A program made the position numbers and the translations under genes. From contig JAJIRX010000940.1 of assembly GCA_023853785.1 (NCBI GenBank), forward strand, positions 49,581 to 113,580: a stretch of 64,000 bases of DNA, written 5' to 3'. The stretch comes from Psilocybe azurescens (taxonomy: Eukaryota > Basidiomycota > Agaricomycetes > Agaricales > Agrocybaceae). The notes under the pieces were generated by a model that made no database searches, had not been told where the DNA came from, and saw only the letters and a program-made list of their open reading frames with translations. This document shows positions 19,108 through 51,158 of this stretch, piece by piece. Position 1 is the stretch's first letter, and each line of letters opens with the position of its first letter.

Positions 19108-19109
19108 TA

Positions 19110-22405: not shown

Positions 22406-22412
22406 GTGTTGC

Positions 22413-27420: not shown

Positions 27421-29553
27421 TTAATCCGGATTTTTGACAACAAACCAAAGGTCTTTGGGATCACCTGGTCGACTAGGAAGTGGTTGCATTGAAATAACTG
27501 AGTCAATTAACGATACTGGAAGACAATGTAGGTTCCCTTGCCCAGTATACTCACATGCATGTAAGGTGTGCGATGATTCATTGAGCATTTCTTGGTTTGG
27601 TGGACCGTACAAGGAGAGAACAGCATGAGCAACTTGTTCACCAGGTTCGTTGCTATCTCTGTCAAGGAAAAAATATTGAACCTCAGCAAATTGAACCTTG
27701 CCATCAAGATGGATCTTTATTTCAAATCAACAAGGGGTTTAAAGTGATTAGAATAAGATTTACCTTGACATTACGTGTAACCCTTGTGTCCTCAGAAGTC
27801 TTTCTTTTTTCTGAATATTGACTCCTGGCAATTTGGCCATTGGGGAGCTGAAGATGCCCCCACTTTTGTCGCCTTTCTTTATTGCATACCTGTTTTATTA
27901 CCTCAGATTCAGCCTCAGAAAAACTGCTTGCTAATCTCTCCCAAGGTCGAAGTAATGCATACCCGGCACCAAGATCATGAGAATATCGTGGGAGGTGAGG
28001 AATATTGTCACAAAGTTCTGGGAAAGCTGCCTTGAGAGCATTGACCTGAGCACGCTGGAGAGAAAGTTGGTATAGATTTCCATATGGGTTTGATGGTTGC
28101 CTGATTCCTTTCCCAAGCTCCCTGATTGCTCGTTCTATGGTGTATTGATCCATAAGACACCCATTCCCAAATCGAAGGACTTCAGCCGCTGTATGGAGAA
28201 GTGTGTGGAGTGATGGTTGAGTAAAATGTAATTGATCCATTCGGCGTTGGTAATAGAGATGCTCGTACTCTTCAACAAATTGTACCAGATAAGAATGAGC
28301 TTCTTTGACTTGTTTTCCAGTGATTCGTCGTTGCATGATGATATGGACACCACAAACTAGTTTGCAGAAGTTCTTCCAATATTTCTTGGGAAGGACTGCT
28401 CAAAAAAAATCCAGGGCCAAGGCTGAATAAATAGAGATAGTATTCAGTTGCTTTGTAGCTGCTGGATATCTTTTCTGCCGGGTTGTGAGGTGGGCAATGG
28501 AAAAAAGATGGAAAGAATTTTGTTGCTGCCACAACAAGCTTTCCATGAGACTGCCAAGTAGCACCAACTAGAGTTGCCCAGTCCCAGGTAGACTTGTCAT
28601 CAGTTGATTTGCATTTGAAAATTCCATGCCAGATTGGAATAAGAAGTTCTCCAAGGTTTAAACCAAAAAGATGCATGGTATCGATGGTAAAACAGAGCAG
28701 AATAGAGAGGATATAGGATAGGTGTAATCCACTCAAAACTGATGGTTTACTGATCCCAGTAAGCTTGCAATTCTTCTCATAAGAATTTTGGTCGATTGAT
28801 TCAAGAACTAGAGTGAGATTAGATTTATAGTCGTTGGGAGAAATCTGGAACATGAAATCATGAAAGTTAAAGTTAGGATGATTACAATCATCAATGTCAC
28901 AGTTATTTGGCTTCAGGTGAGCTGCAAAATAATGGCCACTGGATGGTTTGTGTTGTCCTTTCATTGGACACCCTTTCCTGCAACCATGAGTGCCATGATG
29001 ACCGACACAACCATCCATGTCAACCAAACCAGGTGCATCTGAATTTGCAGCAATAACAACTGTCCGAGCCGAGACTATAGCATCTTTGGCAGCATCATAA
29101 ACCTTGATTCCAGAACCATTATCTTCTTTTGAATCGCAGATAGATGGTGTAGACTGCGAAAAGACAAGAATCCATAATCTTGCATTTATTGGGACCAGGT
29201 GTGATAAACGCAGGGAGGATACATTTGGATTGGTATCGCGTTTTTGGACTATAGTTAGCAACTATCCATATACCTATCCAGGTATCCGATTTCTTGTTTT
29301 GATAGAGCTGTGCACCATCAATAGAGAGGATGATGGTAGTGTCATCGCTGGTCAGATTCAGCTCATCCGAAAATTTCCTGATATCTTCACCGCAGAAGAT
29401 GTCATCGTAAACAGCTTCCGATGGGTCAATTAATTCAAGTCTTCCAATATTTCAGCGATTTTTTGTTCTTGATAGGCCTTGGCCTTGGCACCTTGAACTG
29501 AGCGCCGTGAAAGCCTGGATTTGAGGACCAAGTGGAAAGGTGCACATTTTTGC
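27421..29553 (-). pseudogene. Tnp2-type transposase of element A, C-terminal part
   Basis: Reading minus from 29553 gives TFPLGPQIQAF, then YDDIFCGEDI, ILSIDGAQLYQNK (a catalytic Asp region), ILPAFITPGPNKCKIMDS, DMDGCVGHHGTHGCRKGC, LCFTIDTMHLFGLNLGELL and a long C-terminal helical region. The last exon ends at 27421 (FVVKNPD). These are the landmarks of fungal CACTA/Tnp2 transposases. Frame changes near 29140 and 28380, plus missing sequence, make it a pseudogene. The N-terminal half is not upstream here but 21.6 kb away at 51159-52292, in the same orientation. Confidence 0.85.
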
Positions 29554-29556
29554 CTA

Positions 29557-29900
29557 GGTACATCAGCAAAATCAGAAATACTACAGAGCGCTCGGGTAGT
29601 ACTCTATAGCATCCGAGTAGTTTAGCAAAGGTCCCCATTTAGATAGTCTTTCGTCACTTGTATGTAATTTATTCTGGTTGTTATGGAGTGCTATATACCT
29701 CTCGATAGCATGTGCTACGAAAGCCCATAGCATTCCATAGCACCATCTAATTATGTTCATAGCACTGCCTAATTATGTCCATAGCATTACATACCATAAT
29801 CCATAGAATCCCATATCACAATCCATAGTATCATCTATTAGAATTCATGGTAATCTGTAGCATCCCTCATCCTACTACATAGCAGTATATAGACAAGGGC
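29557..29900. repeat. Element B left terminus and subterminal TAGCA repeats
   Basis: The terminal repeat is followed by CATAGCAT-like units at about 29608, 29707, 29738, 29747, 29762, 29783, 29857 and 29879. The opposite end carries the complementary motif, as expected for transposase-binding subterminal repeats. Confidence 0.7.
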
Positions 29901-30179
29901 AGCATTACAAACCACTTACCATCCTCTAATATTATACCTTGATTAGCCAATTGAAAGGCCTGTACAATGTGGGGTTCAAATGAAATGACCAGGTAAAATT
30001 TCGTATGCATTAAATTAGTTCTACGACAATTACTGTAAAGAGGACTACCACTTCTGAGACAATACGAAGAAGAAATATGATAGATACAGCCCACACAATC
30101 AGTCAAGTACGGGTTCAAAGTTATATGGGTTGACCATATCATCACAAGCCTGAAGTTGCCTCCTATTACTCATACATTT

Positions 30180-33100
30180 TGAGGTGAGTTCAGAGGAAAT
30201 AGTGTATTGATTACTTACATCCCCATTGCTGCCCAACAACAACGATTGTCCTCAAGAGCACATTTATGGTATTCATATGTTCTGACCTTGTCTATCAGCG
30301 CTAGCATGGCAGAGTGTATCTGGCCATATGCTTTTTCGCTGAAGTTGTTTTTGTCATGGGTTCCAGATCGCCATTCATCGAGGCAGCTGCGAATCTGATA
30401 GAGTGGTTAGCACTTGGCATGCCATGGTAAACAGATTAAAATGTAACATACACACGTCATGACCAGGGCAATAGCACCATCCGGTACCATGTCCTTAAAC
30501 TGGTCAGGGAATGACTTTGCTATACCGTTGTCTCGATTGTAGTAGAATTGAAGGATGAGGTTTTGAATACATGGGTGCAAGATGTTCAAGCGTTTACCCT
30601 TCACAGATGAAAACTTAGTAACATCGATTAAGTGGATGAGGAGATTTACTTACCTCAGTGTTTGGTGGACCAACCAGGAACAGACAGTTTGGTTGTAAAA
30701 CCACATGGACCTGACAAGAAATTACCACCTCCAAGTGTTTTTGCTGGGGGATGGTGGGTCCAGCATAGGTGAGGACATCTACATAGTGTAGCATGACGAG
30801 TTGACGGCAAAGTTGTTTCATTGCACACCGGTAGCTGGCAGCCTCCTTGTATACCTAGACAACATATCAATAAAGATAGAAACAAGAAAATGAAATCAAT
30901 CTTACAACTATAGACATGGGCCTGGTAATCGTGTACCCTGAAAGAATCAAGCACATTAGTAGAAAGAATGATCGAATATAATTATAGACCTTACTGTCAC
31001 TGAGCTCTATACCCTTTTCTTTGTGAGCTGCTAAGGATTGCATTAAACATGCTCTAGCATCCAAAATATCGAATGAGCGCATAGGAAAGGCCTTTTCTAC
31101 AGCGATGTAAAACCGGAATCGTTCTTTAGCATCCTGGATGACAGTTTGCCAGGTTTTCGGATAATATCGAAGGCAAGTGTTGTTGGTATGAGCTAATTGT
31201 CCTACTACTTGTCCCTGTTCCTGATTGTTACCCTCCCGTTCATTTGATTGGGCCTCAGAGTCCACAGTATCCTCTTCTTCACCACGTTGACTCAAGGCCT
31301 GCTGATTTGAAGCAGCAGCAGCAAGCCTTGTAGGAGAAGGTGGGCAATTGGGACGATTTCGGCGGCGGTGTTCTTCAAGGATATCGCAAACGCCGTAGTC
31401 CTAAAGGACAAGCTCAGTACATGCACTTTGAACAGGTAAGGTCATACCTCTTGCGCAGCCAAGTTGGGATTTTGAGAGTAGCTTCGAAGATATTCAAAAG
31501 CGCACCTTTCGTCTTCATCGTCAGATACTTCGTCAACAGGGACTATAAATTTGTAGGTTCCTTAATCTTAGTGTATGGAGAGGAAAGGCTTGCACTTACG
31601 GCCATCCCCATTGCCCTGAGCGTCAAGCTGACCTCCTGGGAAGAACCTGACGTCGTAAGGATTGTTGAAGTCATCATCGTCCTGAAGATAAATAATTAGT
31701 AAGATGTGATTCGAAAGCTTACCACTCACATGTTGATCATTTTGTGAGCGATCTTTGTCACGCCACTGACTTTGGTGATTCTCGTCATTGCTCCAGCAGA
31801 ATGGTCTGAGTCGTGCCTCGTCTTTGTCTTTGTCTTTGTCTTTGTCTTTGTCTTTGTCTTTGTCTTTGTCTTTGTCTTTGTCTTTGTCTTTGTCTTTGTC
31901 TTTGTCTTTGTCTTTGTCTTTGTCTTTGTCTTTGTCTTTGTCTTTGTCTTTGTCTTTGTCTTCATCTTCATCTTTGTCTTTGTCTTTGTCTTTGTCTTCA
32001 TCCCTCGTTTTCGTTCATCACGTAGTCTTCTTCATTGTCGTTGTCATTGTCCTTATCACCATCGACATCGTTCTCACCGATGAGTTGACCATGGAGTCCG
32101 CTGGTTTCAGTAACTTTGTTCTCTTGAGCGGGTGGATCGTCGTATATGTTGTCATGCGTTGCCTATATAAATTCCATATCGGTATCGAATATAACAAACA
32201 TATATATATATATTAAAAAAGAAACATACGTCCATCATATAAAGCGTTGAATTCACTTGAGGTACTATTAGCGGGCTTCTTCTGTGTTTAAAAGAGTAAG
32301 CTATACCTCACGGAGTCCGTCCTGAGGCTTCTATAGGCCTCTGCTGCTGCAAAGGGGTTCACAAAGTTGATTCGCAATGGCCCCTTGCTGAGAAGGGGAT
32401 TGCTGTTGAACAAGAACCGGTTGGCGCTGTTGTTGTTGAGCAAGGCCCAGGGGCGGTTGACGCTGTTGCTGCTGAGCAAGGCCCGGGAGTTGGCGCTGTT
32501 GGTGCTGAGCAAGGCCCAGGGGCAGTTGACGCTGCTGCTGTTGAGAAAGGCCTGGAGGCACTCGACGTTGATGTTGCTGAATGACAGGAGGTTGACGTTG
32601 TTGCTGCTGGACAACAAATGGCGTTGGTGATGCCTTTTCAGTCTCCTCGTTCCGTTCGCAGAATTGATTCAACAAGGTAATGGGGCTCCCCTTAAGGGTG
32701 GGTCGACCTGATTGACTTTCGTGACCTGTAAAGGCTGTAAGACAACATTGAGATATACAATCTTCAGAACACTCACATCGCCACGAACGCACTTGGCAGG
32801 AGGGGCCATGTCATTATTGGACAATTCACCTGCGAAATTTTCGAGTTTGGTGGGCTCAGCACCTACAGCGCGTGCCTCGTTGGGCGCTTCTGGATCTTTG
32901 CCTCAAGGTCCTGACCAACGGCTTGGGCTGCCTTCTGCAGCTGAGCTATGTGACCACCTTGGCCACGGGTACTGCAAATTGGCCTACAATTACCGGTAGG
33001 AACGTTCTCTTTAATACAAAGATAAGTAAAAGTTGGTCCTGTATATTCTGGAATGCATACCCTTATTCACTGTCGCTTGAGTGCCATCTGGCACTGGTAT

Positions 33101-33330
33101 TCCCATAACCGCCGGGCTATCTTCAAGGTCTACTGCAGCAGAATATGTACTAGTATCAGTATGAGAAACAATGTTAGCAGGCGGAAAAAAACCTCGTGTG
33201 TCCACTTCAGAGGCCCCACTGGGACACACCGAGTCAGGTATAGCTTTGGTCGTCCTTTTCTGACGTTCTGGTCGGTCAGGAAGAGGCTTTTGTATTGCTT
33301 TTGGTGGATGCTTTCTTTGTGTTAGCCATG
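30180..33330 (-). pseudogene. DUF6532-type basidiomycete gene in element B
   Basis: A multi-exon minus-strand gene. The candidate start MANTKKASTKS at about 33326 leads to a Ser/Thr-rich exon (33011-33229) and a Gln-rich exon (32331-32792, repeated GLAQQQQRQ units). A Lys/Asp-rich part over a hexanucleotide repeat follows, then the conserved domain: LRYYPKTWQTVIQDAKERFR, AFPMRSFDILDARACL (30990-31295), VKGKRLNILHPCIQNLILQF (30407-30604) and CLDEWRSGTHDKNNFSEKAYG (to about 30210). The order and spacing resemble proteins with DUF6532, a basidiomycete domain of unknown function often found in repeat-rich regions. The start region needs a frame change, so it is probably a pseudogene; the conserved domain exons are open. 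Confidence 0.65.
31819..32001. repeat. (TTTGTC)n hexanucleotide repeat
   Basis: About 30 units of TTTGTC, with a few TTCATC variants towards the right end. It is open in all frames and would encode Lys-Thr/Lys-Asp runs on the minus strand, in line with the DUF6532-type gene around it. Confidence 0.97.
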
Positions 33331-33699
33331 TTGAAAATTTTCTGACACTCTCTATGTGATTAAGAGTTAATGGGGTGAAGCTGAGCTATTCGGATGGTTC
33401 ACTTTTCAACATGTTACCCCTCAGACTGCCCCTTTTTGTGACAATAGATCTGACCCTACTTCACTCCAAGCTCCGGCCTCCCCCCCCCTGTAACATAAAC
33501 AAAGAGTTTTGATGGTTTCTATCTAATTAAGAGAAGAAATTTTGTGGTACAACATATATAGGGGCTTAGACGTCTGCTAGTCCAGAACCATACCAATAAT
33601 CCCAAACAACGCCGATGCAAAGCTTTAGAAATGGTTGAGCTTGAAGAATGGCAAGAAGAAATATTGTGGTACAGCATATATAGGGGGTATAGACATCTG

Positions 33700-34062
33700 T
33701 TAATCCAGATTCACACCAATAGTCCCAAACGATGAGTGAGAGAACATATGCAAAGCTGTAGAAACAGTTGAGCTTGAAGAATGGTGAGCGAAAGGAGGGG
33801 ATAACTCACAGCCCTCTACATGCTCCGTAAGTTTCTCAGATTCTTCAACAGCTTCACCAGGCTCATGTATAGGCACAACAATCCCAAAAGATATTAAAAT
33901 ATGTTGGATTTGACCCAGGGCAAGTTGTGCATTGAAAAGCTCCATATCAGCCGTTTTCAAAGCTGAAATCGCCGCTTCCGCCCGGACACACAGCTCCGCC
34001 TGTTTACGTCGGCACGCAGCCTCCTTTTCTTTGGCTTCTTGCAGCATTGTGTATGCTTGTTC
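33700..34062 (-). CDS. Small coiled-coil protein, unknown family
   Basis: The reading gives YTMLQEAKEKEAACRRKQ, AELCVRAEAAISALKTADME and LFNAQLALGQIQHILISFGI, a strong heptad-like helix, then an acidic Pro-rich tail. It may be one exon of a longer gene: the upstream side at about 34062 has an acceptor-like AG and the downstream side is not resolved. I have a faint memory of similar agaricomycete proteins with no known function. It lies inside element B. Confidence 0.4.
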   Translation of the reverse strand, partial: EQAYTMLQEAKEKEAACRRKQAELCVRAEAAISALKTADMELFNAQLALGQIQHILISFGIVVPIHEPGEAVEESEKLTEHVEGCELSPPFAHHSSSSTVSTALHMFSHSSFGTIGVNLD

Positions 34063-34923
34063 AGGGCAGGTTACCTAAATGGTTGGTTGAGAGCTGTACC
34101 ATGACGATGTGAATCGGTAGCGTACACTGACACCAAGTCGTGATGTTCGTGATATAGAAGTAGGCAACATGATTAATTTGAATTCCTGATATCAGTTGAA
34201 GCAAAACGACAAGGACTGAAGTCTGCATTACAGGTAGAGAAACAAAGGTTTTGCAGAAAATTCGCGGCCACCGCTGGTGCCGACGTGTTGATATTGATCA
34301 CATGATATTCCAGTTATGGATTCATCTCTAAATGGCAAGTTTTTGCGACAAATTCCTGCTGGGGATGCGATGTGTCATGAGAAACGAGGAGGATCAATTG
34401 ACCTTGCAGGAAATCTTGGTCGACTGAATTTCTAGAGAGCCAACATGCCCCCGACTAGGGAAGTGATAGAAATTATATTGGATGAAGACTTGAGCGCGGG
34501 AAAGCTTGGGAATGGATATTAGAGCCTGCGAAGTGGGCTTGCCGTAGTCTGCAGAGTTGATTGATTGATTAACGAGCGGATTTCAACAATGGTATCAACC
34601 GACAAAGACATATGTATGAAGGGGTAGGAAAGGTTCTTTCGGCAAGAGGGACATTGGAGGGGCAGCAAATGGTCTGGAATATTCAAAGGTAAGTAAGCTA
34701 AAGTAGAGTAGCCAGCAGATAACTTACTTCTGGACCCATGTTTCACCGACGAGCTTCAAGGCCTCAGATGGTGCAATGGCTTTGCAACCATGGCTATTTG
34801 CAACTTGTGGTCTGAGTACACAATTGGGCCATATCGAATAAATCGGGTAGCGATGGAGGTAGCGAACAGGAAGAGGTGACGAAGAGACCATGTAATAGGG
34901 ACAATAGAGGGCGGATGGCGACA

Positions 34924-35636
34924 TCGGAAGGAGTCGGTCAAGGACTCAAAAAAGATGGAGAATGTTAGAGGAGACAGTAGGATGTAGAAGAAGTGCTCCT
35001 CCGCATCCTCATCTTTATTAACATATATGAAGGCGGCAGAGAATGTAGATCCCGTAGATCCTGCTGCCTGGATGGCAATATCGGAAGGAGTCGAGGACTC
35101 AAAAAAGATCAAGGACGTTGGAGACAGCAGGATGCAGAAGAAGCGCTCTTCCGCATCCTCACCTTCATCAAGCGCCATTGAAGGCGGTAGCAAAGGTAGA
35201 ACCAGTTAATCTTGCTGCCTGGATGGCGATATCGGAAGGAGTCGAGGACTCAAAAAAGATCGAGGACGTTGGAGGAGACAGTGGGATGCAGAAGAAGCGC
35301 TCTTCCGCATCCTCACCTTCATCAACGCCAATGAAGGCAGTAGCAAAGGTAGAACCGGTTAATCTTGCTGCCTGGATGGCGATATCGGAAGGAGTCGAGG
35401 ACTCAAAAAAGATCGAGGACGTTGGAGGAGACAGTGGGATGCAGAAGAAGTGCTCTTCTGCATCCTCACTCTCATCAGAGACAATAAAGGCGGTAGAAAA
35501 GGTAGAGCTCGTAGATCCTGCTGCCGGAGTCAATAGGGTTGACCCCAATCCCAAGGCAACGTACCTTGGGATTGGGCAAAGGAGGTTGAGAGGAGAGTGT
35601 GAAGAGATCGATGACTGTCGCGAGGTGATCATGTGA
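34924..35636 (+). CDS. Tandem 51-residue repeat ORF
   Basis: TCGGAAGGAGTCGAGGACTC starts four units at about 34924, 35081, 35232 and 35385 (spacing 157, 151, 153 bp). In the plus frame 35118-35636 the units encode ISEGVEDSKKIEDVGGD, SGMQKKRSSASSPSS and VAKVEPVNLAAWMA. One strand's frame is open over the two 153-bp units, but the first unit differs in length and breaks it. The minus strand is also open (35168-35644), so the coding strand is uncertain. No function is recognised. Confidence 0.4.
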
Positions 35637-35736
35637 ATATTCAAACTCCGTTGTACACGTGAATATTCAAACTCCGATGCACACGTGAATATTCAAACTC
35701 CGTTGTACACGTGAATATTCAAACTCTGTCGCACAC
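35633..35736. repeat. 26-bp tandem repeat, four copies
   Basis: GTGAATATTCAAACTCCG starts at 35633, 35659, 35685 and 35711, an exact 26-bp period with TTGTACAC/ATGCACAC linkers. Confidence 0.95.
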
Positions 35737-35782
35737 AGGATTAGCGACGTTAACCTTTCGCCCCAAGTCCTCACCACTACAG

Positions 35783-35998
35783 TGATATAGACGAGCGTTT
35801 CTTCTATATCATAGTCTGTGGTCACCCCTCAACTTATTTATTTCCGTCAATCTCTCCTACTTCCTTGTTGTGCGGTATACTAAAAGCAGGACTCGTCATT
35901 CATTTTTTCTCTTTTTGTTCCTCGCCTAGTATCTTATTGTGCGCCTTCGAGTCGAATCGTTCAGAGCATGATATAGACGAACGTTTTCTTCTATATCA
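35783..35998. repeat. Two copies of one hairpin, 186 bp apart
   Basis: TGATATAGA...TCTATATCA, a perfect 9-bp stem with a short loop, occurs at 35783-35811 and 35969-35998, followed each time by (A/G)CTCGTGG- or GTCTGTGG-like sequence. It lies upstream of the decayed gene that starts near 36331, so a regulatory role is possible but unproven. Confidence 0.75.
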
Positions 35999-36330
35999 CT
36001 GCTCGTGGACTTTTCCCTCGTTCCTAGTACCGCTACATTTCATGACATACGAAGGATCCATTGTTTCTCTATTGTTTTCCTCGGCGATTTTATCTGTCCT
36101 GTTCTGATCTCTAGAATCGAACCGTACGTTTGAATTTCTAAATCTCTTTTTCTCTCTTTGATTTGATCACTCTTTTCTAGATCAGTATTCCTATCCTTTG
36201 ATAATCCACACTCTCTTCTGTATAGCTTCAGGATCCCATTGTGGTCATGTAAGTCAACAAGTCCATATCATGCATCTGAACGCAATTTCTAACACATCTT
36301 GTCTTCCATAGACAAGTGATTTTGTTCAAT

Positions 36331-39280
36331 GTCCTCCACACCTTTCGACTGGATGAACGGATGTGTTTTTATACAGAATGGCACCATCTACTGCTCTCCC
36401 AATTCAAGGCGTCCTGTGCTTATCCCCCCACACCCCCACTACCAGTCCCTTTGACGCTAAACTCCTGAACATCGCGATGTTCAAGCAGCCTGTATGGTGG
36501 TCGGATTTGTTTGGCTGAGCTTTCATTCGTGCCCTTGGCACCCTCCTTTCTTTCATACCCGTTCCAAGACTTATGCTGGATTCCACATACCAAGGAAACT
36601 ACTGCCTTGGGAGGCGATGGTTATCGATACGAGATGGATGAGGACAGCTGCATGAAGTGGGAAGAGGCAGAAACCTGCTTGGTGGAAGCTGTACACAGAC
36701 TCCCGAATGGCGTACAACATCCGCGGTACAACGCCTCCTCCCCATCTTTGTTCAACTATTCAAAGTCGCATAAATCAGCTGCGATTTCTGGAAAGATGAG
36801 CAAGTTGGCGCGGGACTGGTTTGCTATCTGGATGGGTCTTCTATCTTACATCCTGGCCCAAGCATCACTTCCCAAGAATTATAAAAGCGCCCAGTATGCC
36901 GCAAGACGAGAACTGTCCATATCCTTCCTGGTACATGAAACTCACAAAGGACCCCAAAATCTCTCTGGCATGGTTAGACGGGCTAAGCACCTCGACTGTC
37001 AATACTTTTGACGCCCAAAACCCCTCGTGCGGGTGTTGTATTACGATGGACCGAGACAGATAAACTACGGCCGTCTATCGATTTCTTTTGGATCATCACA
37101 TTCCAGTATACTACCCTTGGACAATAGCTGAGGAAGAAGCTGTTCATTGCGATGGTTCTTTGAGGCACCTTCAGCCGCCGGAACAGATGGTTAAATGAGC
37201 TTTAGATGCCATTTTCCAGGACCGCGATTTCGCATTGGGCGCTTTAATTATGAATTCTTACCTCTGGCAGAAAGAGAGTCCCCAAGATATTAGCATGCAC
37301 TTACTGGATATCAAATACGCTGACGTCCTTTGTTTTTCGACACGTGAGCCACAAGTTTGTGCGTGAAGCTAACCATGGCGATAGACCTTTCCAGGATCCG
37401 TTGTTGGCTCAAGACAAGCTTGAGCTCTTGATTGCTGAGCGTACATCAAAAGAAGAAGAGGCTGCTCGTGTTGCCTCCAATTTGCCCATGCGTAACATGA
37501 TTGGGTGGTTAAACGAAGAGGAGAAGGGCGCACTATACCAGGACTGGAAAACATTTTTCAACAAAAGAACAAAACACAATGCCGAGATCTTGGCTTTGGA
37601 GGATCCTTCTACTTGTCAAATCTTGCTGGAACAGGGTGCTCGTCCTCCTCTCGTTGATACCACAATGTATGAATGGAAGACGATTCGTTCTTCTAGAGGA
37701 AAAAGCTTTACATGCGAGTCCGTGTCAACAGCGCCAACCAGCAGGCCGTACATGGCTGTTATACCAAATCTCACAGGGTTTACGACGCTCTCAACAACAA
37801 ATGGGATCTTTGTAGGGACTTCACACCGCCACTTGAGTTAGCTGAGGGTGGTGACATGGATGATGATATCGATTACGGCGATCCCAACCTTGCTGACTAT
37901 GACGATGGCGATGTTCTCTATTCACCTTGCCAAATGCCGTCTACTTCCTTCACTCAGTTTCCTGTGTATGTGGATTATAAAGATGATGATTGGAACAGTG
38001 ACGAAAACTACGACAGAGACTGCCATGCTTGTATAAAACCTTCTGCGCCCGTTACAGAAGACGAAGACGCCCGAGCTATTGCCATCCATGAGGGAAACTG
38101 GTCAGAAACCGCAAGACGCTATCCTATCCCTGAAATATGGGTACGGATATGTACCACCACTGTCCACTGTCAGGTATGACACAAGCGTCGACATATGATT
38201 GGCGCACAGTATCTCGGGGCTTTGGATTCCTGCAAGGTGGCAAAGATGAGGAATTGGGACAGGCCGACTGTGCAGCTATACAGAGATTTTTTCTGCCATG
38301 GTGGCAAAAATTGATTCACAAATACCGACGGAGCTCTGGGATCTTAACGACACAAATCATCTGTCCCTCAGTCATTTGCAAGATTTCAATCTTATCGATA
38401 GGCCATCCGATAATTTATTTGTGTTCAGTAAGCCTCGGACAATAGTGTCAGACTGGATGCTCAGAGTGCAGTCCCCTGAGATCGCTCTGTATGTATGTTG
38501 TCTAATTTTATCTCATTCAGCACATACCATACAGACTGTCTCTCGTTGTCTCCTGCGAGAATGTATCCCATTCCGCACTCTGGTGCCCTTGGAAGTGAGA
38601 GCACGTGTTTTCACTGTAAAAGAGCCTTACGCACCCACATCCTTTCGCAAAGCGGGTTACATTTTTACTCTCGAGGACTTTGAGGCTGCCATGTCGCGGT
38701 GCAAAGAAGTTGTCAGCCAGCCTCACGGCCGTGCAGCACTGTTGATGGGGGATAATTTCTCGGATTGCTAGGCAATACGTGAGCCTCAACGCAACACTGC
38801 AGGGACCCTCTGTCAAAATTACGCAATACCAGATCAGATTCGTGTCTACTGCTGTTTCTAATGGATACTCATATTGTGACGACGAGCTAACTGCAAACGA
38901 GCTGGCAGCAATATGCGGAACATATTCTATGTATACTGGTAAATTACCATTACAACCAAACGGTTTCCCACTAACATGTCTGAACAGATCTGCCAGAGCA
39001 AATCACTGTCAAATCCTGGTTTCCTCCAGCTGCCATTTGGTCCTCATATAACGCATACAACTGTCCGGGATGGACTGAACGCAATGAACAATTTTTTTGG
39101 AACGTTTGCAAGACATTTACAAGGGTGCTCAACCTTACACCGTCACCGAATGGAAAAGAAAGCTCAGAGGGAATAAGCTGTACAGGCAACTTATCGCGAA
39201 CAATGCAAAGCGCGCCAAGCTTTTTATCAACAAACATCTGCCTGTGCAAGTGCCTGGATAGACTGGACATCTTTGCGTGT
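36331..39280 (+). pseudogene. Decayed orphan gene in element B
   Basis: Plus-strand coding remains can be followed in several frames: MSSTPFDWMNGCVFIQNGTI at 36331, MDEDSCMKWEEAETCLVEAV, NHGDRPFQDPLLAQDKLELL, NMIGWLNEEEKGALYQDWKT and RVRVNSANQQAVHGCYT. An acidic stretch (37850-38050) follows, then IPTELWDLNDTNHLSLSHLQ, EVRARVFTVKEPYAPTSFRK, YNAYNCPGWTERNEQFF and WKRKLRGNKLYRQLIANNAK near 39200. The order suggests one long protein of about 800 residues with introns. I recognise no domain. Frame changes and stops (for example near 36455 and 37012) show decay. Confidence 0.5.
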
Positions 39281-39935
39281 ACACAAGGACTGACATGCAT
39301 CTTGTTCCATCTCCCGACTGACTTTTTCGTCTATCTTCCTTGTAATCTTGTTCACCTCTCGTCTTCGAAATTGTCTGTCGCTGTCTGTCGTTGCCGGCCA
39401 TTTCACTCCGTCTTGCTTATCATATTATTTTGTTTGTCCATAGATTAATGTTGAATTCTGCGTAGTGGCCTATGTTTGAAGGTTTAACATTGTGAGCCTC
39501 TTGAGCATAGCAAACCCATGTACCTCCAATCATTCGATGCCGAGCCTCCTGGTCCTATGGTAATGTATTGGGCGTGGACTTCGTGGAAACTATTCCTCAT
39601 GCGAGCAAACTATCAGGTCACGTCTCGCGATTAAAGGTCAATTATCTATTTTCATATTCATGACACTCCCACTTACCTATCATTTTGGATGTTGGAAATG
39701 TTTGCAAAGCCATTGAACGAGTAAATTTGCTCACTGGTATTGTGAGTCCCTCATTTTTTCCGTTAATCGCTTATTTATTGGATGTGCCTAATATACAGTG
39801 ACTACAAATCTTCAAAACGATGGACTGTGTACAAGAAAATGCGCAATATATATATACAAGTTACAAAAATCGCTTCAAATCACTCTGCCACCTGTTTGTT
39901 CTGCACATTGATCTCCATAACGTGCACCCAGCTAT

Positions 39936-40466
39936 TCAAGATAGGTTTTTTCCTCTCCTATACTTCGATGATCGCCTGTCTAACTGTCGGCTTTGAAAGG
40001 TTGCCGCTTTGTCTTCGAAGAGATGAGCGCCACCAACGTAGTAGCCGGTCAAGTCAAAGACACGCAGCGTATAGTGATCAACGTTATGTGAATCGTCGCT
40101 GGAAACCTTTGTGGACTTGTGAAAAATCGAACTATGAGCCGGAATTAGCACTGAAGGACAAAGAAACGGACACGGGAGACTCACGTTATGACCATACACC
40201 CCCTCCATTACATCGGCGGCGACCTTGCAGTTCTTCTGCGCTGCCTTCTCAATGTCGTCGACAATATTTGGGGCCCACTTTGCGATGAGATCGACGATAT
40301 GCATTCGCGTTTTGTGTATTCGCGGCGGGAAGTAGTGTTTGTGGAATCGAATCGAGAGTTGCATAGCGTAAAGAGCTACAAAGACACGGTTAGTGAAGAA
40401 TATACATTGAATAAGCACTGACATACAGTAGCAGGTCCCAAGAGCTCCGAACCGCCACAAGGTCAC
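39936..40466 (-). pseudogene. Unidentified gene fragment, divergent to the kinesin copy
   Basis: The minus-strand reading contains IHKTRMHIVDLIAKWAPNIV, DIEKAAQKNCKVAADVMEGV, then after a likely short intron VLIPAHSSIFHKSTKVSSDD and TLRVFDLTGYYVGGAHLFED. It looks like a real conserved cytosolic protein fragment, but I cannot name it. It sits head to head with the kinesin-5 sequences, so the two may have been captured together from one chromosomal locus. Confidence 0.45.
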
Positions 40467-43007
40467 ACCGTTGGGTGCGACCCGACTTGAAGGTGGTGGT
40501 TGAGAAGCATCTCGAACGACTCACCGTTTTTCTTAAATATGTGACATCGCTTTTCTCTATACGTGACGCTCGGTGCATTATTTGATGAATTCGTGTCATT
40601 TTCGGTAGCTCGTCGTCCAGTCTCCGTTTGTACAGAATCAGTGCTATCAATTAACTCTCGACCTTATGCTTCCACCTCAACAACTACAGCGGTCAAGATC
40701 TGTCCCGGCCGCCATCTTTTTCTTCACAAGGAGTCGCTTCGGACACACGGGACTCTGCTGGAACATCTGGGAAACAACAAGGAAATCAAGACACGGAGAC
40801 ACACATTCAAGTCACATTGCGCTACCGAGCTCGATCTGAACGAGAAATAGACAAAAAATAGACATTTATTGTAGATATCGACAGCCCAAAGGAAGGCAAA
40901 GAACTGACCGTCCAGATATTAAAACTGAATTCGAGTCCGGGAATGCACACCCGAGCACCCACACGAACATTTCCTTATGATATCGATTTTGGTCCAGAAG
41001 CTAATCAAAGCATGATATTTCACGATGTTATTGCACCTATGGTAAAGGAGATTATTGAAGGATATAATTCTACTGTATTTGCGTACGGGTAAACAGGAAC
41101 GGGAAAAAGTCACGTGATACACTTGTCTGATATTCTGTTAGTTTTTGTGATTAAACACTTTGTTTCTAATGTTCTACACTTGATATTTGGACTTGTACAA
41201 ATGGACACCCAGTTAGAATTCGCTCTTTTCGGTGTTTTTGCACACTGTTCTGTTAATAACGTTTTGTAGAGTAAAGTTATTCAAATTCTGATCACTGATC
41301 CGGAATCCCCTCGTTGAGACGGTTCCGGTGATATATAATTTGTCACGTAATTATAGGTTTGGTGTTTTGACGCCAATATTGTGGACACCTATAGTCATGC
41401 CTCGCCATTTTTAGACACTTAGCCATGTAAAAGACCAGTATTCCTACTATGTCTGAGGAAACAAAGACACTAGAACAAGATTTGGAGTCTACAGAAGCAA
41501 TTTACTATTTTCACTCATACTTGTCATTGTTGCGCATTTGAGATTTGACTCTATTGTTACTCATCAGTATAGCTACTGATTTGTGCATTATTGTCTATTT
41601 CTAACATATTCTCACTCTTTGAACCTCCCCACAGATTCACCATCCCAGACGTTTTGGTCCCCATCTCAGTGGACGGCCCTGCTCTCACAGTAGGAATCAT
41701 TCCCGTGTCATTATTTCGTCTGTTTCATGAGCTCAAAAAGTATATACGGACTGTATAGCGATAATATCCTATATCGAACTCTACAACGAAGAGCTTCGGG
41801 ACCCAATTTCGACATGGCCGCTCGCCGTCCGGTCTCCACTCGCACAAGAATTAACAACAATCTCAACCCGATGCCTCCACCTCAACAACTACAGCGGCCA
41901 CAATCTATCATGTCCCGACCACCTTCTTCCTCTTTATAGAGAATTGCTTCAGATACATAGGCCCCTGTTAGAATATTCGGAAACAACAAGGAGATCGAGA
42001 TGCAGAGACGCATTCAAATTGTATTGCGCTACTGAGTTCGGTCTCAACGAGAAATAGACGAAGAACAAACGGTCATTGTAGATATCGACAGCCCAAAGGA
42101 AGGCAAAGAACTGACCGTCCAGATATTAAAACCGAATTCGAGTCCGGGAATGCACACCCGAGCACCCACACGAACATTTCCTTATGATATCGATTTTGGT
42201 CCAGAAGCTAATCAAAGCATGATATTTCACAACATTATTGCACCTTTGGTAAAGGAGATTATTGAAGGATATAATTCTACCATATTTGCGTACGGGTAAA
42301 CAGGAACAGGAAAAATGTATGTTATACATTGTCCGATATCGTCACCCGTTGAACTTTCCCCACAGGTTTATTATGCAAGGCGATTTGGTCCCCACCTCAG
42401 TGGGTGACCCTGCCCTCATGGCAGGAATCATTCCCGTGTCTTATTTTGTCTGTTTCATGAGCTCGAAAAAGTATATACAGACTGTATAACGATAATATCC
42501 TATATCGAACTCTATAACGAGGAGCTTCGGGACCCGATTTCGACATGGCCGCTCGCCGTCCGGTCTCCACTCGCACAAGAATTAACAACAATCTCAACCT
42601 GATGCCTCCACCTCAACAACTACAGCGGCCACAATCTATCATGTCCCGACCGCCTTCTTCCTCTTTACAGAGAATTGCTTCAGATACATAGGCCCCCGTT
42701 AGAATATTTGGGAAACGACAAGGAGATCGAGATGCAGAGACACACGTTCAAATCATATTGTGCTACCGAGCTCGGTCTCAACGAGAAATAGACGCAGAAC
42801 AAACAGTCATTGTAGATATCGATGGCCCAAAGGAAGGCAAAGAACTGACCGTCCAGATATTAAAACCGAATTCGAGTCCAGGAATGCACACCCGAGCACC
42901 CACACGAACATTTCCTTATGATATCGATTTTGGTCCAGAAGCTAATCAAAGCATGATATTTCACGACGTTATTGCACCTATGGTAAAGGAGATTATTGAA
43001 GAATATA

Positions 43008-44615
43008 CAGTGACTCAAAAAACTGTCCGGATGTTTTGGAAATTGAACTTAAATTGACTATAATGTCATATAATCTTTATGAAATTACATGATTTAAAAT
43101 GTACTGAAAAGCCCTGGATCACAGCTTTCAGGAGATATAGCATATGTTTGTATTTAGTTGGTTCATATATTATTATTAAATACTTTATAAAAATAACACA
43201 TCCGGACAGTTTCTTTGCACCCCATTGGAATTAACACAATAAGGTTTTTGTTATTGTAAACATGTAAAAAATATCAAATGAATGAAAACATGTTGGAAGT
43301 ATATAACAAAGACTGAAACTTTACATTCCCCCAAGTTTATAGCCCATTATTCTCTACTACACAGTCATGTATTCTCTCTCTTTTAAATTATACTCTAACA
43401 TCATCTTTATGCTAGAAAATGGTGATTCTATTTGTAAAACTGATGTCAAACATGGTGTTTTGAAGTCAAATATTTGGGTGATATGTTTTGGGATAGAGTT
43501 ATTGATGAAAAAAATCATGAAGACCATTTTCTAAGCTCACTCCCCATGACCACTGCCACCTAGTTTGACTTGTCTCCACTGGAAAGGCTGGTACTTCCAC
43601 ACAACTCTGCTGTCAGCTTCCCACTATCACTAACACATCTATCTCCATCTAAACCATTCAAAATTCCCTCAAAAAAGGATCTTGTAGCACAAGTCAAGAT
43701 CAAAAAGCCATTCCTCTCTAAGAACGATAGGAAGGCTTGCTTGAAATTTGTCCAGAAGTATGAAAACTGAACAGAAAAGACTGGAAACATGTTATGTTTA
43801 CAGATAAGACCAAGATCAATTGAATTGGGTCAGTTGGAAGGCAGTAGGTGAGGAAAAGGCTGGTTCTCCTCTCCAAACTCAGTGTGTAGAAAACCATCAA
43901 ATTTGGAGAAAGACATATGATGATTTGGAGTTGTATAACAACAAGTGGTATTGGCTACATGTGCAGGATAGAAGGCAAGATGTACAGAGAACTCTATGTA
44001 AGCATTTTGGATGACTGTGTCTTCCAAACTCTGAAGTATTACAACCTTAATCAGGATGATTTCATCTTTTAGCAAGATAATGACCTTAAGCACACATCCA
44101 AAAGGCTCAGAAATGGCTTAAAGACCATAAAATAGAGCTTTTGGACTTACTATCATAATAACTAGATCTCAATTCAATGAAAAATTTGTGGCATATTCTC
44201 AAAATGTGCTTTGTAGAATACAAAAATGCTCCAAAGGGTATCCAGGAGTTGTAGGGCTGAATACTGGAGGAATGGGAGGAAATACCCAAGGAAGACTATG
44301 TGAAATCAATGAATAGTATGTCTAGAAGAGTTTTAGATGTTTTGAAAGCAAAGTGGAGTCACACAAAGTACTAGTTTATATAGATACCCATATTCCAACG
44401 GGCCGCAAAGAAACTGTCCGGATGTGTTATTTTTATAAAGTATTTAATAATAATAAATGAACCAAACAAATACAAATATATGTAATATCTCCTGAAAGCT
44501 GCGATCCAAGGCTTTCTAGTACATTTTAAATCATATGATTTCATTAAGATTACATGTCATTATAGTCAGTTTAAGTTCAATTTCAAAAACATCCGGACAG
44601 TTTTTTGAGTCACTG
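43008..44615 (+). mobile_element. Tc1/mariner DNA transposon 2
   Basis: TA flanks at 43006-43007 and 44616-44617; removing the element and one TA restores the kinesin reading seen in the other copies. Inverted repeats of about 210 bp start CAGTGACTCAAAAAACTGTC. As in transposon 1, each repeat ends internally with the same motif inverted (CATCCGGACAGTTTCTTTG). Total 1608 bp. Confidence 0.95.
43570..44370 (+). pseudogene. Tc1-like transposase, heavily decayed
   Basis: Pieces of the family can be read in changing plus frames: FLSKNDRKACLKFVQKYEN, MFTDKTKIN (first Asp region), DDFIFQQDNDLKHTS (second Asp region) and a broken C-terminal stretch around 44150-44340. Many stops (for example 43767, 44130, 44162). 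It is much more degraded than the transposase of transposon 1. Confidence 0.85.
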
Positions 44616-47433
44616 TAATTCTACCGTATTTGCGTACAGGTAAACAGGAACAGGAAAACGTATGTTATACATTGTCCGATATCGTCACCCATTGAACTTT
44701 CCCCACAGGTTTATTATGCAAGGCGATTTGGCCCCCTCCCCAGTGGATGGCCCTGCTCTCACGGTAGAAATCATTCCCCATGTCATTATTTCGTCTGTTT
44801 CATGAGCTCAAAAAAGTATATACGGACTGTATAGCGATAATATCCTATATCGAACTCTATAACGAGGAGCTTCGGGACCCGATTTCGACATGACCGCTTC
44901 GCCGTCCGGTCTCCACTCGCACAAGAATTAACAACAATCTCAACCCGATGCCTCCACCTCAACAACTACAGCGGCCACAATCTATCATGTCCCGACCACC
45001 TTCTTCCTCTTTATAGAGAATTGCTTCAGATACATAGGCCCCTGTTGGAATATTCGGGAAACGACAAGGAGATCGAGATGCAGAGACGCATTCAAATTGT
45101 ATTGCGCTACCGAGTTCGGTCTCAACGAGAAATAGACGGAGAACAAACGGTCATTGTAGATATCGACGGCCCAAAGGAAGGCAAGAACTGTACCCTACCG
45201 GTGAGTCACACACCAATGGTTGCATTGTATTCTGACGATATGCTTATTGGTACCCTATCTACCCAGTGAATCAAAACTGACCAGGCTTCTGCAAGACTCT
45301 CTGAGAGGACGAACAAAGACCTGCATCATCGCCACAATATCTCCAGCTAGCCTTAATATCGAAGAAACACTCTCCACACTCGAATACGCTCTCCGCGCAA
45401 AATCCATCCGCAAGAAACCTGAGATTAATCAACGCATGACGCGCGAATTCGCTTCTGAAGGATCACATCGTTGAGATCGAACAGCTCGAAGCTGATCTCC
45501 TTGCTGCTTGCGAGAAAAACGGCATATGGTTTTCCGAGGAACACTGCAAGCAGCGCGTTGCCGAATCGGAACTGAGGGAAGCAAAATTGGTGGAAGCGAA
45601 GAAACAAGTAACAGTCATCGGGAACCAGATGGGAGCCGTCCAGCGATGAGTATGACCAGAGTATAGCCCTACTCAAGTCCAGAGAAGAAGAATTGGACGA
45701 GACCAGAATTATTCTTAAACAGACCGAGAACGTCTTATGCCAGCTTGAAGCTGATCTCCTACGTGTCACTGACGAATACAAAAGGAAGTCGTCATTCGCA
45801 AAGCTCATCAAGAGACGGAGGCGGCGATCAATAGTGTGGCAATAGGGCTAAAAAATGTAACAGAAGAAAGCCTGCATGATCTTGGAAATGTCTTCGAGAA
45901 GTTAGGTGAGTAGAACCGTCCTGTTTGATGAAGTCGCTCTTAATTTTTTGTAGATCACAAAAATAAAGTCTTAGTTTCAAACAGATAAATTGTTTCGGAG
46001 AATGAAGAACTTATTCACACCTTCGCAGATGCACTCGCTGAAGAAGCTGGCGGAGTTAGGTCAACTTATGAAGACACTGAGAAACAGCCTCAAAGACGAC
46101 ACAACAAATTTCCATTCTTCACAAAAACAGACGATATACAGTCAGGTGGAAAGGGTGAATGCCCATTTCGAAGGCACCCAGGATCTATTCCAACAAATCG
46201 AGAAATGTGAAGCAGTCGGTGACCGTGCGCTATCTGGTCTCAAAGAGCAACTCGAGAAGGCGTATTTGTCCTTCAATTCTGATGTATCTTCCTGTCAGGG
46301 AAAACGGTGGCAGATTGTGAACAACATTCCGGCAAAGCCATATCAGCCGGCTTCGACCAGCTCGAAATATTGGAACAATCAGCGACAATTTTGTCCTCCC
46401 TTTTGGACTCAATCCTCCACGACATCCAAGACTATCTCAGCAACGAAAGCGCCAGCGCTGACGGAGCTGCAGACATTGGGAGAAACTACGACCACGCAGG
46501 AATTACTACATCTTCAACATCAGAATGTCTTGTTGGCTCAGATGCTTGTCAACGAGCGGAAGGACGCCGATAAAGCCAAGAACGACCTGCTTCAACGTGT
46601 TTCGGGACTACTTGGCGAATTCATGCAAAAGCGCTGACGACTCTCTGAAGGGAATCCATGAGTAACTTGCAATGCAGTAATGCGGAGGTCAGAGAGCTAT
46701 TGAAATCGACGTATGAACGACAGTCTGATCTACACGATAGTCTGTCAACCACAAATGGTGAACTGCAAAATCAGATTGAAGCATCCAGGGATAAAGGCAG
46801 TGAAGAGAAGGAGAAGGCGGCGGTCCAGGTATGAAATTCTAGTTCTCCAACTTCGATGACTGGTTTATACTAATTATGTCTTGTAAGAATGCTGCAACTG
46901 CGAAGGAGGTGATAAGGGCTTCAATACAAGACGTGCAAAATGATATTACAAGTTCGGTTACAACCCATTCAAAGTGGGTTAATCGACAGATACGATCTAT
47001 GGACAAATCTTTGCAAAATGGTATGTTTATTTTCCTTGACCAATATTGAATATACTGACATCGTATGGGTAGCTTTTAAAGAATACAGTTGAGCAAAACG
47101 TGCCAGGATAGAGGCACCAGATGGAATACACGCGAACATTGAAAGTCATCATTCTGCCCAACACAATTTTGTCGTGTCAATTCCCCAGGCAGAAAAACAC
47201 GCCGACCAAGTTGCTTCTTCTAGGAGTCTCTTCTTGTAGTTTACATTTCACCGACCTAAAAATTCATGTCCCAGGCTTGTGTGCTTCTCGCATTACACCA
47301 CGCTAGGCTGGACGTGTTCCACTCTCAGAAGAACAAGGATCACACGTGTAACATCTATATCCAAACATAATTGTAATGCAGCAGGAAGCACATTTCCCTC
47401 ATCCACATCATCAAAAACATTTCTGCTACCACA

Positions 47434-50400
47434 ATGCTAGTTGACAAGATGCTTTGTCCTCGCTGCTCTGCCCCATTCGAGAATGAATCAAGGCTTTTAA
47501 GCCACATGAATCAGCCAAAGTCTTGTTGTCATCATGCCTATGAAAATGTTATTCACTTTCGATCCGGAGTTAGTGCCTTGGAAGCGCAAGCAATTGTGCA
47601 GGATACGGGCCTTGAAACAGACAATCCTATTCATTCAGTAGTCACAGCAGACTTCTCACCTGAAGATAACTCTATGGACATCAACCACCGTAATGATCAC
47701 TCAAATGATATGGATGTACACAAAATATTGCCTGAGTCCTCTAGCCCATACTTCAAAGTGGAGTATCCTGGGGCCTCCAAGCAGTACAGCAGAGATGCCA
47801 CTTTTATGGAGAAGTTCAACAAAGACAAATATGCAAACCAACGGATCACAAACCTTTATTATCCTTTTTCTTCGAGGGATGAATGGGAGCACGCACTTTT
47901 TCTCCTACACTCCTCCATGAGTATGAAGGCCATAGATGAATATATTAAATTACAGCTGGTAAGGTCTCCAGTGCACCTCAGACTCAGACCACACGCTAAT
48001 GTCTGATTTTACAGGTAAAGAAAATGTTCCTTTCGTTCTCCACGGCAAAAGATCTCAAGAATCGGGCAGAAATTCTGCCTAGTGGTCCTGCATGGAAAAT
48101 TCGGTCAATAAGTCCAGCGTATCCGACCAAAGCGGCAGTCGTTTTATATTATAGAGATTCGGTGGAATGTATGCAAGCTCTCGTCAGTAGCCCACTTCTC
48201 CAGGATCATATGCAGTACAAGCCTTTCCGTTTGTACAATTCAGCTACCAAAGTAATGTGGGTTTACACTGAGTGGCTGTCAGGCGATGCGGCGCATTATA
48301 TGCAGGTCTGTAATGATAAATTTTATCGCTATCTCGATGTCTCACCCAGAGCTTCTCAGGAAAAGATACCAGAGGGTGGTACCCTCATAGGAGCCATCAT
48401 TTCTTCGGACAAGACCCATATCTCAGCCCAGACAGGAAATCGCGCAGCTCATCCATTACTCCTCAGTTGCGCCAACATCAACATGAACGTTCGAAACAAG
48501 GCCTCAGGCCATTTGTTTGTTCTCCTTGCCCTTCTTCCAATACCAATATATCACCACAAGAAGTCGGTTATCCGAGGAATGCTAGAGAATCAGCTGTTTC
48601 ATGAATGTCTGGATATCATTCTGGGACCCCTCAAGAAGGTTGCAGAGATTGGGATGATGTTTGCTGATCCGTTAGGCAACCTACGGAGGTGCTACACCCC
48701 TATTGCTGCATATATTGTCGACACACCTGAATTGGCACTGATTGCAGGAGTCGGAGCACTGACTTCGTCTGTAACAATGGCAATGTACAAGAATTTTGGG
48801 GACGACTTTTGCCATCCACCAAGAACCGGTGCATCAACCCTTAAATCCATTGCAGCACTGGAGGCTAAATACGACCCATGGGAATTGGAAAAATTCAAGG
48901 AAATGTCATTCGAATTGTATCATCTTAATGGCGTGAATCGTCCTTTTTGGCTTGACTGGCCGCTATCTGATCCTTCAATATTTCTCACCCCGGAGCCCCT
49001 CCACCATTGGCACAAACAATTCTGGGATCATGACGTCAAATGGTGCATCAATGCTGTTGGAGCTGCCAAGTTGGACTTTCGCTTTTCAGTTCTTCAACCT
49101 CGGACTGGATACCGACATTTTAAGGAAGGGATATCAGCCTTAAAACAAGTAACAGGACGGAAACATCGAAACATTGAGCGCTACGTGGTGGCACTTATAG
49201 CTGAAGCAGTTTCCAACGATTTCGTTTACGCTGTTCGCTCTCTGATGGACTTTCGGTACCTCGCTCAGTCTCGCATTATCGATGAAGCAGAATGCTCCAA
49301 AATTTTGAGCGCCTTAAAAGGCTTCCATGATCACAAGGACGCTATCATAGCTGCTGGTGGTCGACGTGGAAAGAAGAATGTTATCATCAACAATTGGCAC
49401 ATTCTCAAAATCGAGTTTTTACAGAGTGTGGTTCCCAACATACGGTTAAACGGGGTTGCAATTCAGTGGTCGGCAGATACTACAGAGCATGCTCACATCA
49501 AAGTTGTGAAAGACCCTGCAGATACTGCCAATAATCAGCGCTACGAGCCTCAGATATGTCGTCATCTTGATCGAATGGATAAACTTCGCCGGTTTGATCT
49601 TGCTACGTCTATTCGGGAGGCAGGAATCAAATTTTGTGACCCGTCAGAGGAATTGGAATATGAATCAGATCCCGACGACGAAACCACCAAACTCACCGTC
49701 AACACTACTTCAGAACTTCTCAAGCTTATTAATTCTGTTACACCCATGGCTGGGTTGACTACGGGAAGGCTTGTCAATTATTTCTACAGAGCCAATCTCC
49801 TGAAGCAGGGATCTATCAACGCGCCTACACCACTAAGAACACATCAGAGCTCGAAGAACGTCGCTTTTCATCTTTCACGCGACCCCAGCTACAAGAGAAC
49901 AAGCATCGATGATGTTGCCCGGCTCTTCAATCTTCCCTGATCTACGTCCGGCAATCGCGAGATTATATAACGCGAGTTGTTAATCTGCATGAACGAGACC
50001 CCTCTGCAACCACCAATACTGCTCACATCGACAGCATCGGAGGCAAGCGCAATGCAGCCGCTGGTTGTGACCTCCCCTATACCAGTTTGGAGGTATGGAA
50101 CAAAATTTGCCTTCAAGCTACTGCATACCATTATCCCCACAATATCCTTCCACATGTAACAATCAATGCCTTTCCACCATCAGAGAAACGGGCGTATGGG
50201 TTTTTTTGACTCAGCAATTGCAAATATGGATCCAAACTACATATGGCCTCAAAGCAGCCTCAAAGGTGACTTTGAAAATTCTAAAGCTATAAAGAACCAT
50301 CTAATTCTATATATCTTAGGACATGCTGTGGTCGATATTCGTTTAATTTTTCAAATTGTTCCTATCTCTGCGAAGCTACCTTCCCGCGATATCACTGACA

Positions 50401-50721
50401 GATTTCTTACATATGCACAACATTTTGATATCATTCCTCAGCCTCCAGTTAGAGGAGCCAGGTTCCGAGGTCCTTATCCAGAACTGTCAACGTCAATGTA
50501 TATATTGAAAAGGAGCAAACGTGCAGGTGGGCGGCCCTATGGCGGACATCCTCCCATTAGATCAACTTCGTGCTCTCGCTGATTTGATTCCGCGGATGGG
50601 AGCTAAAGCTAATCATTGTCTTACAGCAAATAACAGTCATAGTTTGAGTCTTGATTTCCGTCTGAACAAATTCTTTGACAAAGAGATGTATTTGGCATTG
50701 TCATCAAAAGCTGTAGTATAG
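47434..50721 (+). pseudogene. Plavaka-family transposase
   Basis: Starts at the ATG at 47434 with a C2HC-like finger (CPRCSAPFENESRLLSHM). Exon 1 ends at 47958; a 56-bp intron (47959-48014) leads into the long exon. A second intron of 54 bp is at 50266-50319. Landmarks: YYPFSSRDEWEHALFLLHSS, VMWVYTEWLSGDAAHYMQ, GGTLIGAIISSDKTHIS (catalytic Asp region), FADPLGNLRRCYTPIAAYIVD and the C-terminal LNKFFDKEMYLALSS. Small frame slips at about 49938 and 49965, and another at about 50525, break an otherwise open 1000-residue protein. It ends 430 bp before the right end of element B, as expected for that element's own transposase. Confidence 0.92.
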
Positions 50722-50734
50722 AGCAGGTCTGCTA

Positions 50735-51155
50735 GTAGGCTGTAGTAGAATACTTGTACAGTTCTGTATTTGTATCCCAAATCTATCGCCTCATGCTGCC
50801 TTTCTATTTATAAGCTGAAGTGAACTGATCACTGGTACTGTAGTATACAGACTATTTGGACTGTGGAGATGAGGTATATTGTGTGCTGTTTCCTTGCTAT
50901 TCTCTGTTGTTCAGGCTCTCCTTATAGTTTGACCATCAAGTGCTGTATAATGCTAGAGATAATGTAATGAATACTATTGAACATTATACAACATTGGAGG
51001 TATACTATCGAGGAAAACCGATGCTACAGAATACTAGGGAGTGCTATGTATTGGTTGGTGATGTATTATGTAATACTTTGATGGTTTGATGCTACGCGAT
51101 TTAAGCGTGATGCTACGGCTCACTATAGCTGAAAATCAGGATTTGCTGATGTACC
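50735..51155. repeat. Element B right terminus and subterminal TGCTA repeats
   Basis: GATGCTAC/GTGCTATG units lie at about 50732, 50950, 51022, 51042, 51090 and 51110, ahead of the terminal GCTGATGTACC. They are inverted relative to the left end. Confidence 0.7.
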
Positions 51156-51158
51156 CTT

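Follow-up and report, generated by a model that had tools for sequence, protein, structure and literature searches.

The window, a 64,000-bp stretch of the Psilocybe azurescens genome (bases 49581–113580 of contig JAJIRX010000940.1, here C808; the genome comprises 70.4 Mb in 937 contigs), contains a 21,591-bp element that we interpret, with a probability of about 0.94, as a PlavakaB-lineage DNA transposon (CMCT clade, CACTA-like) that is nested in a Tnp2-like gene and has moved as a block. The element is bounded by short inverted repeats and carries a Plavaka transposase together with additional genes, including a fragment of a resident kinesin gene, and movement of the whole block by transposition is supported by colinear copies at different sites. 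Searches of the P. azurescens genome score the best candidates only, and the genome-wide counts given here are thus lower bounds.

Boundaries, target gene and genomic copies

Alignment of the copies places the element proper between a CATCAG start at 29561 and a CTGATG end at 51151, with the opening sequence CATCAGCAAAATC and the closing sequence GATTTGCTGATG. The element is flanked on both sides by parts of a single gene, and the features of its ends and of the target are as follows.

29561..51151, plus strand (the orientation of the transposase): PlavakaB-type transposon, 21,591 bp, from termini and aligned copies
29559..29560: left target site duplication TA, from aligned copies
51152..51153: right target site duplication TA, from aligned copies
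29561..29570, plus strand: left terminal inverted repeat CATCAGCAAA, from exact search and aligned copies
51142..51151, minus strand: right terminal inverted repeat, TTTGCTGATG on the plus strand, from exact search and aligned copies
29561..29960, plus strand: subterminal TAGCA cluster, 9 copies, from counts against shuffles
50752..51151, minus strand: subterminal TGCTA cluster, 6 copies, mirroring the left end, from counts against shuffles
51152..51784, minus strand: upstream part of the interrupted Tnp2-like gene, from flank joining and the C486 paralog
28272..29560, minus strand: downstream part of the interrupted Tnp2-like gene, from flank joining and the C486 paralog

An initial annotation of this DNA described a 14-base inverted repeat at the two break points. 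This sequence, GGTACATCAGCAAA, is exact at both, and occurs without mismatch in the window only at 29557–29570 (plus strand) and 51142–51155 (minus strand), but just the portion CATCAGCAAA belongs to the element; the aligned copies identify the outer GGTA/TACC as target DNA, consisting of the TA direct repeat plus GG/CC. With up to three mismatches there are five matches in the window against 7.1 expected, so it is the exact pair that carries weight. The mirrored TAGCA and TGCTA motifs reported at the two ends far exceed shuffled sequence, with nine TAGCA in the first 400 bases (0.42 expected) and six TGCTA in the last 400 (0.47 expected), counts reached in none of 10,000 shuffles; the left cluster lies partly inside a 22-bp tandem repeat.

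On the minus strand, the two flanks code for portions of a single transposase-like protein, and when they are joined with a single TA, a 100-amino-acid open frame spans the junction. A paralog on contig C486, with 64% identity across 50 residues on the upstream side of the junction, has both gene parts contiguous in one frame across the insertion site. The earlier description of a protein interrupted by the insertion and resuming on the same strand is borne out, and is to be qualified by a frameshift near the junction. Its label Tnp2 is putative, as Pfam gives no match for the interrupted gene or for its C486 relative. The 11-mer TTTTTGCCTAG lies at window positions 29547–29557, three bases before the element, and five bases before it in the left flanks on C161 and C440. 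Site-specific targeting of Tnp2 genes, suggested by this common 11-mer, was rejected, as BLAST of the joined Tnp2 flanks gave no match at the C161 or C440 loci, and these flanks showed no further resemblance beyond the 11-mer.

The ends recur widely in the genome, with at least 15 matches to the left end and at least 17 to the right (the window's own included, and some of them short or diverged), a question on which the initial annotation had made its proposal depend. Both ends are present on five contigs, C808 (21,591 bp), C527 (26,431 bp), C642 (17,952 bp), C314 (34,766 bp) and C161 (25,003 bp), and the first four of these combine both ends with colinear content at different sites. Over aligned bases, the copies on C527, C642 and C314 are 97.96%, 97.75% and 95.54% identical to that in the window, and all four share the same end base on each side and have different flanks. 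Direct repeats of 2 bp are found at three of the five two-ended sites: TA in the window, CA on C527 and GC on C642. Within the common core of about 18 kb lie a DUF6532 gene, repeats, a member of a multicopy gene family, the captured part of kinesin and the Plavaka transposase, and even the shortest two-ended copy, on C642, has the DUF6532 gene, the multicopy-family gene, the kinesin fragment and the transposase in this order. The proposal of one mobile unit that moved as a block thus agrees with four copies of the same content order at different sites. The 21.6 kb reported for it is not all old cargo, however, because nested inserts and tandem units were added later; the window copy is 3.6 kb longer than the core, for the most part through two nested inserts and tandem kinesin units. 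The C527 copy holds a 7.7-kb insert of its own at about C527:73240–80900 (loci L026 and L027), the ends of which look inversely repeated.

All copies other than the four colinear ones are partial, and those starting or stopping at contig base 1 include the copies on C603, C923 and C321. The C161 copy retains the outer parts only. It was considered as a copy with different cargo and rejected as such, since four of its ten scanned open reading frames (ORFs) have retroelement domains (Integrase_H2C2 twice, a reverse transcriptase and a gag protease) and six have no match; it is probably a short derivative filled by retroelements, in which about 0.9 and 1.3 kb of the ends remain. Within this copy, C161:42800–72000 (L029–L031) contains large inverted repeats, of 5.1 kb at 99.4% identity and 1.4 kb at 96%. 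Contig C221 (C221:1–7556, L045) matches the window from 48409 onward and has the same insert right end and the same right flank. It differs by five substitutions in 2,743 compared element bases, yet the whole match is 98.98% identical over 5,099 columns, so that the indels may partly be assembly errors, and C221 is probably a duplicate or a contig from the other nucleus with indel errors. Four right ends, on C480, C846, C347 and C157 (L019, L021, L022 and L025), have one common flank, TACAGAGATTGTAAGG, as if an old insertion had been spread by another repeat.

The copies decay mainly by C-to-T changes at CpG. Among the private C-to-T changes of the window copy, 201 of 236 are at CpG, affecting 11.3% of CpG against 0.30–0.75% of other C, and the corresponding figures are 64 of 81 in C642, 48 of 61 in C527 and 351 of 453 in C314. 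This excess fits what deamination of methylated CpG would produce.

Transposase and cargo

The internal features of the window copy are listed here; Pfam scans of the C642 copy covered its left 8 kb in six frames and its right 10 kb in the plus frames.

30287..30592, minus strand: DUF6532 domain, profile 111–193 of 194, from Pfam on C642 and located in the window copy
34913..35506: tandem repeat, 153-bp unit, 3.9 copies
36469..40285, plus strand: chain of ORFs taken as an 'orphan' gene, putatively joined into one gene
40608..47264, plus strand: captured kinesin fragment, with tandem 5' units, a partly deleted motor and the stalk, interrupted by two inserts
41135..41605: nested insert 1, 471 bp, not at this place in C642 and C527
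43008..44615: nested insert 2, about 1.6 kb, with inverted CAGTGACTCAAAAAACTGTC at its ends and a TA repeat
47434..48006, plus strand: probable N-terminal transposase ORF with a zinc-finger-like CPRC..H motif, read by eye
48000..49937, plus strand: Plavaka transposase ORF, 646 amino acids, with PF18759 complete, followed by the start of DUF6830, from Pfam
50160..50579, plus strand: ORF weakly matching the end of DUF6830, below the Pfam cut-off

The Plavaka transposase, which had been described as near-complete, has a complete PF18759 domain in the window copy (profile 1–325 of 325, E=7e-82, 275.7 bits). The kinesin and DUF6532 assignments are likewise sustained by Pfam matches on C642 (the latter at its left end, on the minus strand), and both domains were located in the window copy too. 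Pfam says kinesin; the subtype kinesin-5, proposed initially, is putative.

The kinesin fragment derives from a gene resident on C477 near 948.3–952.0 kb, where motor matches lie in four stretches without stops. In coordinates of the native gene sequence (L050), the element carries segments 1816–2547 at 83–91% identity and 2995–5072 at 90–92.5%, with introns kept, and the long block is about 92% identical to the resident gene; alignment across the introns indicates that the capture was genomic. For segment 2548–2994, part of the motor, no match was found in the four full-length copies, and the sequence past 5072, with a further 156-amino-acid ORF, is not carried. The captured blocks have the same rearranged order in all four, in which segment 1816–2547 is present in tandem; the complete units number one in C642 and C314, two in C527 and three in the window, with an additional partial unit in every case. 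An in-frame stop lies in the nucleotide-binding loop of one window-copy unit and of C642, whereas the native gene has none there; the loop pattern has no match in C527 and C314. Outside CpG, the long block differs from the native gene by 4.95–5.09% (in the window, C642 and C527 copies, which were measured), and just 78 of the 279 private changes in the window copy are other than C-to-T at CpG. The kinesin piece was thus probably captured a single time, and this capture would predate the spread of the family.

The DUF6532 gene may extend from about 33,360 down to 30,200, judging from the minus-strand ORFs of C642. The domain is matched at least 18 times in the genome, at 17 loci, and with rows belonging to the present element's copies left out beforehand, three of eight remaining loci have a Plavaka match no more than 5 kb away, on C860 (4.2 kb), C153 (3.2 kb) and C142 (2.6 kb). 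The two genes point outwards on C153 and C142, as in the window element, but not on C860, where the Plavaka match is an 81% relative of the present element's family. The other five loci have no Plavaka match nearby, and for two of them, on C846 and C347, a right end of the element family is matched at a distance of about 2.5 kb or less. Under uniform placement the three of eight correspond to a binomial tail of 6e-6, which is overstated because transposons cluster; in addition, the hits on C580 and C860 agree in all their match figures and may represent a single locus that was counted twice, and the loci on C860, C480 and C157:77738, 81–85% relatives of the element's transposase, were entered as Plavaka loci outside the family. 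Plavaka and DUF6532 are listed together in one passage among extra domains in two Ganoderma species, with no link drawn there between them (PMC8955403). The association is suggestive only, and we propose tentatively, as the less probable state of affairs, that DUF6532 regularly forms the second gene of Plavaka transposons (e.g. a subterminal-repeat binder), in a two-gene layout pointing outwards to both ends.

The repeat proteins of the initial annotation correspond to real tandem repeats, of which the coding nature is putative, and its orphan gene is in fact a member of a multicopy family: the first ORF of the chain has protein matches at 27–44% identity at at least 16 loci outside the element copies, while DNA matches to the stretch 36.4–40.5 kb are almost solely in element copies. 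None of the 16 loci is within 5 kb of a Plavaka match, and there is thus no special link. Contig C758, where only about 640 bp match at 73%, was considered as a possible source of this gene. Counts over the ORFs of the window copy against five others (C527, C642, C314, C529 and C603, with C221 left out) looked neutral, with indels common; purifying selection among the copies was therefore rejected, and the frame breaks give no conclusion on intactness.

Elsewhere in the window, 19081–20193 and 22406–23545 (plus strand) have a reverse transcriptase domain and a zf-RVT match below the cut-off, and are probably one element resembling long interspersed nuclear elements. A Copia-type gag with a zinc knuckle is present at 60265–61188 (plus strand).

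Proposed mechanism and alternatives

The mechanism that we propose would have the Plavaka transposase binding the subterminal repeats, cutting at CA/TG and integrating with a stagger of 2 bp. Entry of the kinesin piece was probably a single event of aberrant repair in the course of transposition (transduplication, of the kind seen in plant CACTA elements), and the piece would have been a passive passenger from then on. Once inserted, the copies probably became methylated at CpG and decayed through C-to-T changes, and other transposons would have landed in them.

Spread of the block by segmental duplication or ectopic recombination, in place of transposition, would suit copies that are long and similar, the presence of the window's right flank on C221, and the one flank common to C480, C846, C347 and C157:52398, which indicates that some ends spread inside larger repeats. 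It is nonetheless left with very slight probability, as exact ends and differing flanks already largely refute it: the four full-length colinear copies have the same end bases on both sides, with 2-bp direct repeats in three of the four. That the cargo merely accumulated through later nested insertions and includes no captured host DNA is unlikely given that C642 keeps its four components in unchanged order within 17,952 bp and that the kinesin piece aligns with the resident gene through introns, although later inserts do occur (two in the window copy, 7.7 kb in C527, several in C314, and retroelement ORFs in C161). A further alternative is that the carried kinesin is a working cargo gene under selection, of the kind found in Starship elements, and about half of its changes relative to the native gene are indeed at third codon positions (37 of 74 in the window, 36 of 71 in C642 and 38 of 68 in C527). 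Constraint on the native gene alone can explain this excess, and with the missing motor segment, the stop in the nucleotide-binding loop and the absence of everything after native position 5072, we consider such a function highly improbable.

Several observations weigh against a PlavakaB transposon nested in a Tnp2-like gene and moved as a block. The C314 copy has no 2-bp repeat, and has instead a 4-bp TTAT flush at both ends, and C161 has no direct repeat. When the joined window gene is compared with C486, the conserved stretch CTFPLGPQIQA is found just downstream in another frame, which indicates the frameshift near the junction. The C(2)C and H(3-4)H motifs described in print, located between the second D and the last E, were not found by simple pattern in the 646-amino-acid ORF of the decayed window copy. 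As to an empty Tnp2 site, the evidence that the initial annotation had valued most, only the uninterrupted C486 paralog was found; no orthologous one was seen in the P. azurescens genome, where the one further contig found with these right flanks, C221, also has the insert.

Comparison with known systems

The initial annotation knew of no named element with this content, but the kind of element is already named: in Kojima 2025 (PMC12730594), PlavakaB is defined by CATCA..TGATG termini and target duplications of 2 or 3 bp. With these the present element shares its CATCAGCAAA..TTTGCTGATG termini, in the window copy and others, its 2-bp duplications at three of five sites, and its Plavaka transposase domain. 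The same source reports capture of TET/JBP dioxygenase genes in the PlavakaB lineage of Agaricomycetes, whereas the C642 scans (six frames of the left 8 kb, plus frames of the right 10 kb) found no TET/JBP domain, and the cargo in its place is the DUF6532 gene, the multicopy-family gene and the kinesin fragment. The word DUF6532 is absent from the main text of Kojima 2025 (PMC12730594; supplement not covered). Among the literature titles and abstract openings searched, with full texts partly covered and supplements and most subscription papers outside the search, no Plavaka element with a kinesin fragment or a DUF6532 component was found.

Starship elements are large fungal mobile units with extra genes, as is the present element, and are classified by their tyrosine recombinase, with a distribution in Ascomycota (Pezizomycotina) (PMC12134995). 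The present element differs in having a Plavaka transposase, short inverted repeats and 2-bp duplications. No tyrosine recombinase captain domain (DUF3435 in Pfam) is among the Pfam results for C642 (left 8 kb in six frames, right 10 kb in plus frames). Helitrons, which are rolling-circle elements, reportedly carry captured genes in Pleurotus ostreatus (Castanera 2014), and resemble the present element in the capture of host genes by a mushroom DNA transposon; the present element differs in having terminal inverted repeats and target duplications.

In grapevine, CACTA elements of 10–25 kb capture host gene pieces, an example being Cactavine-5 at 21–25 kb (PMC2528002). These resemble the present element in large size, in the same broad transposase clade and in having host gene fragments in some copies, and the feature typical of transduplication, an internal fragment of a resident host gene with its introns, is present here as well; they differ in transposase lineage and kingdom, and here the same fragment is held by four full-length copies. 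A transposon library of Marasmius oreades includes elements of up to about 42 kb (PMC9674265), and together with capture by grapevine CACTA elements this provides precedents for both size and capture. The present element adds a lead on the role of DUF6532, a domain of unknown function, and a clean case of host gene capture by a Plavaka element: the parent gene survives at its locus, the element has several copies, and events can be read in order, from capture through damage, spread and CpG decay to nesting.

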